A stretch of 35,464 nt of DNA, taken from a virus. Location: positions 1 through 35,464 of IMG/VR virus record IMGVR_UViG_3300005068_000173; one strand, given 5' to 3'. Under the pieces are notes generated by a model. The model worked only from the letters and a program-made list of their open reading frames with translations, was not told the origin of the DNA and ran no database searches. The position numbers and the translations under genes are program-made. Position 1 is the stretch's first letter; each line of letters begins with the position of its first letter. Below, in pieces: positions 34,328-35,464 of the stretch.

Positions 34328-34572
34328 TGAATAACGCTCTTTGACAATCGAATAGGGAAGACTGGGAAGAGAACGAAGCGGCCCCGGCAATCGCCGGGGC
34401 CTTGAGAGAGGAACAGGCGGGGGCGTTCAACCCGCCCCCACTGGCCCGGTGTTCGCGCACCGGACCACGGCCCCACGCGCGGTAGCCGCCGCACGCAGAG
34501 ATAACCCGCTGCTCCATTCCCCTGATCAGGGTGGCCGCAGTGTGGCAGGGGCAATCCGATTGATCAACTAAA
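34328..34572. promoter_or_regulatory. Non-coding region with stacked hairpins and GATC sites before com
   Basis: GGCCCCGGC/GCCGGGGCC form a 9-bp stem at 34380-34401, GGGGGC/GCCCCC a stem at 34419-34439, and CCGGTG/CACCGG a stem at 34446-34463. The first probably ends late transcription. A TTGACA lies at 34341-34346 without a matching -10. CCCTGATCAGGG at 34520-34531 is a 12-base palindrome around a GATC, and a second GATC is at 34562-34565. In Mu, Dam-methylated GATC sites upstream of com-mom control that operon. Confidence 0.55.
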
Positions 34573-34749
34573 ATGAGAAAACACGAAATCCGATGCGGCA
34601 ATTGCAACCGTCTGCTGGCCAAAGGGCAGGCGCATGACCTGGAAATCAAATGCCCCCGCTGCGGGGCCTACAACCACCTGAGTGCCCAGAGCGCCAGTCA
34701 AGCGTTCCGCGAGGACCACAAGGAGCCTTGCATTGATTCAGATAGGTGA
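34573..34749 (+). CDS. com: Com, zinc-finger translational activator
   Basis: The protein has 58 residues. IRCGNCNRLL and IKCPRCGAYN give C8, C11, C27 and C30, the CxxC-x15-CxxC zinc site of Mu Com, whose sequence it closely follows. Mu Com binds the com-mom mRNA and opens a stem so that ribosomes can start mom. The ribosome site here is weak. The gene overlaps the start of a DNA methyltransferase by 17 bases, so the same type of control over this enzyme is expected. Confidence 0.92.
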   Translation: MRKHEIRCGNCNRLLAKGQAHDLEIKCPRCGAYNHLSAQSASQAFREDHKEPCIDSDR

Positions 34750-35464
34750 CGCCCGTATGCATCAGGGCGAAGCTTTGTCCATCCTTCAAAGCATGGAGGA
34801 TAACAGCGTTGACGCGATTTTGACCGATCCGCCGTATTCAAGCGGGGGGCTGACCACCTCGCAGCGGCAACGCAGCCCGTCACAAAAGTATCAAAATTCC
34901 AAGGCCAGAAAATACAGGGAATTCCTGGGCGACAACCGGGACCAGCGGAGCTTCATGTTCTGGGCGACTCTATGGCTGGCCGAGGCCTACCGGGTGACCA
35001 AACCCGGAAGCGTCTGCATGCTGTTCAGCGATTGGCGGCAGCTTCCGACGTTCACGGACGCGCTGCAAGCCGGGGGATGGATTTGGCGGAATGTAATGGT
35101 GTGGGATAAGCCCTCGGCCCGGCCAAGCCGAGGGGAATTCAAGCGGCAATGCGAATTTATCATCCTCGGCACCAAAGGCCAATTTATGCCGACCCATGAG
35201 CGGTGCTTGCCCGGGATATTCCGCCATTCCATTGTCTCCGGCCCCAAACGTCGACATATGACGGAAAAACCAGTGCCGCTACTGCGCGACCTGCTTGAGA
35301 TTACCCCCGAGCAAGGCACGATTCTGGACCCTTTTGCAGGCTCAGCGACAACAGGTCAAGCCTGCATGGAAACCGGTAGAAAGTTCATAGGCATTGAGCT
35401 TTCCGAGTCCTACTTCGACATTGCCGTCCATCGGCTGCAAGAGCTGTTTACATGGTCTTTGTGA
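34733..35464 (+). CDS. DNA methyltransferase (beta-class, N6-adenine/N4-cytosine type)
   Basis: The protein has 243 residues from TTG at 34733, chosen because AAGGAG lies seven bases upstream and the fold begins IQIGDARMHQGEALSILQSM; a GTG at 34682 inside com would add 17 residues without a ribosome site. Motif IV is ILTDPPYSSGG near residue 30 and the SAM-binding motif I is LDPFAGSATTGQACME near the C-terminus; this IV-before-I order is the beta class. A short target-recognition part lies between. No restriction enzyme gene is adjacent. It occupies the mom position and would modify phage DNA against host restriction. The stop is the last base of the window. Confidence 0.92.
   Translation: MIQIGDARMHQGEALSILQSMEDNSVDAILTDPPYSSGGLTTSQRQRSPSQKYQNSKARKYREFLGDNRDQRSFMFWATLWLAEAYRVTKPGSVCMLFSDWRQLPTFTDALQAGGWIWRNVMVWDKPSARPSRGEFKRQCEFIILGTKGQFMPTHERCLPGIFRHSIVSGPKRRHMTEKPVPLLRDLLEITPEQGTILDPFAGSATTGQACMETGRKFIGIELSESYFDIAVHRLQELFTWSL

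Follow-up and report, generated by a model that had tools for sequence, protein, structure and literature searches.

We analysed a complete virus record from IMG/VR, 35,464 bases long (the window hereafter). The record is Mu-like, i.e., its transposase combines Mu DNA-binding, rve and Mu C-terminal domains, an AAA ATPase occupies the MuB position and one baseplate protein is J-like. At its right end we find the following features.

34520-34531, no strand: CCCTGATCAGGG, a perfect palindrome of 12 bp at a conserved position, with its centre about 48 bases upstream of com
34573-34749, plus strand: com (ATG to TGA), a zinc-ribbon translational regulator of 58 aa (PF10122, PHROG 6417)
34720-34725, plus strand: Shine-Dalgarno sequence AAGGAG of the methyltransferase, 7 nt 5' of its TTG
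34733-35464, plus strand: beta-class N6-adenine/N4-cytosine DNA methyltransferase of 243 aa in the mom position (TTG to TGA; PF01555, PHROG 67)

Genes and layout of the right end

The original prediction of a clear Com is confirmed by the matches to Pfam PF10122 (Zn_ribbon_Com; E=9.8e-20, score 70, cut-off 22.9) and to PHROG 6417 ('translational regulator'; E=6.9e-19), and the protein carries the two CxxC pairs of the zinc ribbon. Likewise, the predicted overlap with a TTG-started beta-class methyltransferase holds, since both genes share 17 nt (34733-34749). The downstream enzyme matches PF01555 (E=7.8e-32) and PHROG 67 (E=3.3e-71). Its N-terminal DPPY is followed by a C-terminal DPFAGSATTG, i.e., the motifs stand in beta-class order, while the D12 family yields E=0.13 and the best matches are not from the D12/Dam family. 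The gene behind com encodes a PF01555 methyltransferase and not a Mu-type Mom (PF25680). We consider the TTG start, with AAGGAG at a distance of 7 nt, sound because homologs share this first residue (GTG-IQIG in L002, ATG-KIQIG in L006 and L020). The nearest com-linked relatives of the enzyme are 69-72% identical; among its relatives, none of known specificity is close enough to suggest a methylation target.

The stop codon of the methyltransferase coincides with the end of the record, which makes it the last gene of the record. In L020, a related locus from Pseudodesulfovibrio, a tRNA-Ala is located 240 nt 3' of the methyltransferase, such that the gene lies near the prophage end there as well. 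At the opposite end, positions 1-696 of the window hold the C-terminal portion of an ImpB/MucB/UmuC-type polymerase (PF11799, PF13438), which is open at the left edge and possibly represents flanking host DNA. Upstream of com, the non-coding stretch that follows the last tail gene contains three strong hairpins (34380-34480; z of -2.8 for the 206-nt region). An Rfam search gave nothing above threshold and hence no family for these hairpins.

The arrangement resembles com-mom of phage Mu (NC_000929), i.e., com lies at the right end and overlaps the modification gene behind it, and a Com hairpin AUGC[CUGCGA]GCAU stands just before the start region. In contrast to the window, the Mu operon encodes Mom, which is not a methyltransferase, and has one Com hairpin and a different inhibitory stem. 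In the P2-like phages KS5, AP3, Mana and Smp131, Com adjoins a PF01555-type enzyme (N4/N6 methylase) that is 44-49% identical to that of the window, with one or two Com hairpins, although these phages belong to another family and the genes are not at a Mu-type right end; in KS5, AP3 and Smp131, Com and the adjacent DNA methyltransferase are annotated as such (see PMC3091744). Pseudomonas phage B3 (NC_006548) shows an annotated Com and DNA methyltransferase with a 31-nt overlap and tandem hairpins. It differs from the window in that the enzyme is annotated as similar to DNA adenine methylases, the hairpin spacing is 20 nt and the gene pair lies mid-genome, before the tape measure gene. Furthermore, Hin1523, Hia5 and Nma1821 are reportedly methyltransferases that occupy the place of mom in Mu-like prophages, said by Drozdz et al. 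in 2012 to be nearly non-specific adenine methyltransferases. Given that Com and a methyltransferase occur together already in B3, KS5, AP3 and Smp131, and that methyltransferases reportedly stand in for mom in the latter prophages, the replacement of Mom by a methyltransferase is known and not new in itself.

The palindrome upstream of com

Two GATC sites within 55 bases of com, one of them in CCCTGATCAGGG, had been predicted and are indeed found at positions -49 and -11 from com. Based on these, it had been suggested that the methyltransferase might feed back on its own promoter via GATC, as Dam does in Mu. A GATC-bearing palindrome at a conserved position fits with this idea, i.e., 49/81 loci show a palindrome (half-length of at least 5) at the place of CCCTGATCAGGG, compared to 5.2 expected. 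What is conserved, however, is position and symmetry and not GATC. For the 56 loci listed with a half-length of at least 4, the palindrome core is GATC in 21, CGCG in 13, GTAC in 8 and GCGC in 8 cases, with TCGA, TGCA and GGCC among the others. The core does not follow the enzyme either: loci with 86-90% identical enzymes show GTAC (L006, L020) or GATC (L031), and the cores of Mom loci differ too (GATC in L011, GCGC in L024 and L092). The GATC site at -11 is not shared. In Mu, three GATC sites are located at -109, -91 and -78, i.e., at positions unlike those of the window, such that we do not find a Mu-type upstream GATC cluster governing the promoter. A simple scan for a sigma-70-like promoter returned none. 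Since the core varies, does not follow the enzyme and the positions differ from Mu, we regard GATC feedback as very unlikely.

GATC is not enriched across the window (136 observed, 130 expected). Two GATC sites in 55 nt correspond to a Poisson P of about 0.02, and upstream of com 46 sites are observed across loci versus 34.5 expected, which we attribute to the conservation of the palindrome only, and not of GATC. Given its symmetry and free core, the palindrome may have a structural or dimerising role, and it is often part of a longer hairpin. Among the about 50 loci that have it (e.g., L006, L024, L037, L057), its length is 10-16 bp and its centre lies roughly 35-60 bases upstream of com.

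Tandem Com sites within com

SELEX with the Com of Haemophilus sputorum identified the motif NGAGNNCC(N)2-3GAGNNCCNN, and the protein binds it as a hairpin whose loop carries CC(N)2-3GAG and whose closing pair is always C-G (PMC6483171). We applied this rule to the window, bearing in mind that it derives from the H. sputorum protein and not from the window's own Com. The following sites are observed.

34679-34697, plus strand: the published bipartite SELEX motif of Com, matched exactly; holds H1
34682-34694, plus strand: hairpin H1, GUGC[CCAGA]GCGC, whose position is shared by most com genes
34704-34716, plus strand: hairpin H2, the second Com site, GUUC[CGCGA]GGAC, 22 nt after H1 and in another codon phase

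Both hairpins present CC(N)2-3GAG with the C-G closing pair, both are inside com and they end 16 nt upstream of the methyltransferase start. They are the sole tandem pair when both strands of the window are scanned, and when the window's com is recoded synonymously, two hairpins arise with a probability of 0.003. H1 and H2 are well supported as Com binding sites; we infer that the window's own Com would bind them.

We compared two sets of com loci. Within the first set (about 100 loci, 84 distinct regions), 68/84 com genes show at least one hairpin under a strict definition of four pairs versus 7.1 ± 2.6 in synonymous recodings, and both hairpins are present in 40/84 versus 0.3 ± 0.5, where the recoding null takes loci as independent though they are related. 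The second, independent set, gathered with the Coms of Moraxella, Mu and others (n=68), gives a similar picture, i.e., at least one hairpin in 60/68 (null 3.6) and tandem hairpins in 22/68 (null 0.03).

Four observations do not depend on this assumption of independence. First, H1 and H2 are in different codon phases, and H2 is built from 16 different stems. Second, compensatory changes are found in 6/8 pairs, and pairing drops when partners are slid by 1-3 columns. Third, hairpins are present in 11 of the 13 Com groups obtained at 70% zinc-ribbon identity. Finally, the second hairpin of locus L182 is located downstream of the stop codon of com. The tandem hairpins are conserved and covary across Com genes with unrelated downstream genes. 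Within 1.1 Mb scanned on both strands, 46/47 tandem pairs are within com, and the five Com-less relatives of the enzyme (BPP-1, Sidious, KL3, PFR1, Mendokysei) show no hairpins. Among named phages, two hairpins near the downstream start are found in B3, Smp131, Mana, AP3, UMP151 and JD024, and one in Mu, KS5, Mcat1 and PCAh2. TJ1 has a single hairpin further upstream, and Chuche has none under the strict rule. Com-like zinc ribbons before structural genes (L014-L019) are without a pair at a fixed position.

Some beta loci, e.g., L006 and L020, show interrupted stems. When applied to a mixed alignment, RNAalifold recovers H1 but not H2, which is probably due to the variable spacer and to competition between H2 and the inhibitory helix discussed below. 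In four D12 loci (L068, L069, L078, L079), both Com loops read GCG rather than GAG with intact stems. This suggests that the two sites changed together, and that the Com of these loci may differ in its RNA specificity.

The location of H1 and H2 inside com could also reflect autoregulation, i.e., Com binding to its own coding sequence to limit com translation or mRNA stability, with little downstream effect. We consider this very unlikely, as the sites are found about 15-55 nt before the downstream start, with a near-fixed distance in most loci, and as the single equivalent site of Mu activates mom (PMC6483171). A conserved tandem Com operator inside com that is used before unrelated cargo appears to be new as far as the literature examined is concerned, in which we found no description of tandem Com sites.

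A putative translational switch and its cargo

The original prediction placed AAGGAG inside a small palindrome that Com could open. The sequence AAGGAG (34720-34725) is indeed inside CAAGGAGCCTTG (34719-34730), which has 5-nt arms around a 2-nt centre. However, CAAGGAGCCTTG is not a perfect palindrome and alone cannot form a full 5-bp RNA hairpin, and the Com sites are located just upstream of it. Structure prediction rather points to its use as the 3' arm of a plausible translation-inhibition hairpin, for which the modelling provides weak support.

34709-34731, plus strand: candidate translation-inhibition hairpin, GCGAGG.CC / GG..CCUUGC, present in the MFE and most low-energy structures

The predicted helix pairs the GG of the Shine-Dalgarno sequence and uses the 3' strand of H2, such that helix and H2 are mutually exclusive. 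For the window alone, neither this hairpin (MFE z of -1.5 versus shuffled ribosome binding sites) nor the start region (z of -1.4) is significant, and the overall predicted accessibility of the Shine-Dalgarno sequence is no higher when H1 and H2 are forced (0.70 free, 0.66 forced). Helices of the ribosome binding site that use the H2 strand recur at loci with a beta-methyltransferase or Mom (mean MFE z of -1.1 and -1.9, respectively), with moderate covariation in the relatives. D12 loci have the hairpins and no predicted inhibitory helix (mean MFE z of +0.2); Com may act otherwise there.

From these observations, a translation switch via the 34709-34731 hairpin is plausible. Com, the product of the first gene, would bind H1 and H2 on its own transcript, within the 3' portion of the coding sequence. 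If the 3' strand of H2 is free, it would pair with the ribosome binding site of the methyltransferase and dampen initiation at the TTG, while Com bound to both hairpins would keep H2 folded and thereby expose the Shine-Dalgarno sequence. We propose that the enzyme would consequently be made only after Com has accumulated late in infection, and that it may then methylate the phage DNA against host restriction.

An alternative is simple translational coupling, in which ribosomes ending com would open the inhibitory helix themselves and start again at the TTG such that the Com protein is not needed. The 17-nt overlap of the genes fits with coupling, and overlaps of similar size are found in many relatives. 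Coupling leaves unexplained, however, why the loop letters CC(N)2-3GAG and the C-G closing pair are conserved, why the hairpins are kept against codon choice in two reading phases and why the Com-less relatives of the enzyme are without hairpins. On balance, we consider it unlikely. We favour with good confidence a reading of the locus as the com-modification cassette of a Mu-like phage, with a beta-class methyltransferase replacing Mom and a Com-dependent switch as its plausible mode of control. That Com drives the methyltransferase, as originally predicted, has strong comparative support from the conserved Com-site hairpins, but the 12-base inverted repeat alone would not mediate it.

The same operator precedes beta, D12 and C5 methyltransferases, an SCPPY variant of PF01555 and also Mom; e.g., locus L092 has Mom behind Com. 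We think it probable that Com and the tandem operator in its own coding sequence form a portable translational switch that is used by several phage families with exchangeable downstream genes (methyltransferases of the beta, D12, C5 and further classes, Mom, lectin-like genes of Pseudomonas), where the conserved C-terminal residues of Com would largely be a shadow of the RNA. Com control has been worked out in essentially one operon, i.e., com-mom of Mu. With a sequence rule that detects the RNA operator in many phages, one can test whether late and potentially toxic modification enzymes are generally gated by Com. The rule also predicts new Com-controlled genes other than DNA-modification enzymes and supplies ready mutants, namely of the loop GA and by stem swaps.

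Beyond modification enzymes, two further gene arrangements are observed. In Pseudomonas loci L025, L088 and L101 (also L098 and L103), as well as L082 and L096, com with one or two hairpins is followed by a lectin-like or small unknown protein; the lectin-like gene of L025 shows a weak match to PF01453 (B_lectin, E=3e-7). In six other loci (L004, L005, L009, L034, L041, L042), com is followed by a small ORF and then by an ABC-ATPase protein (375-380 aa where complete), and the Com sites are often degenerate where this protein stands two genes downstream.
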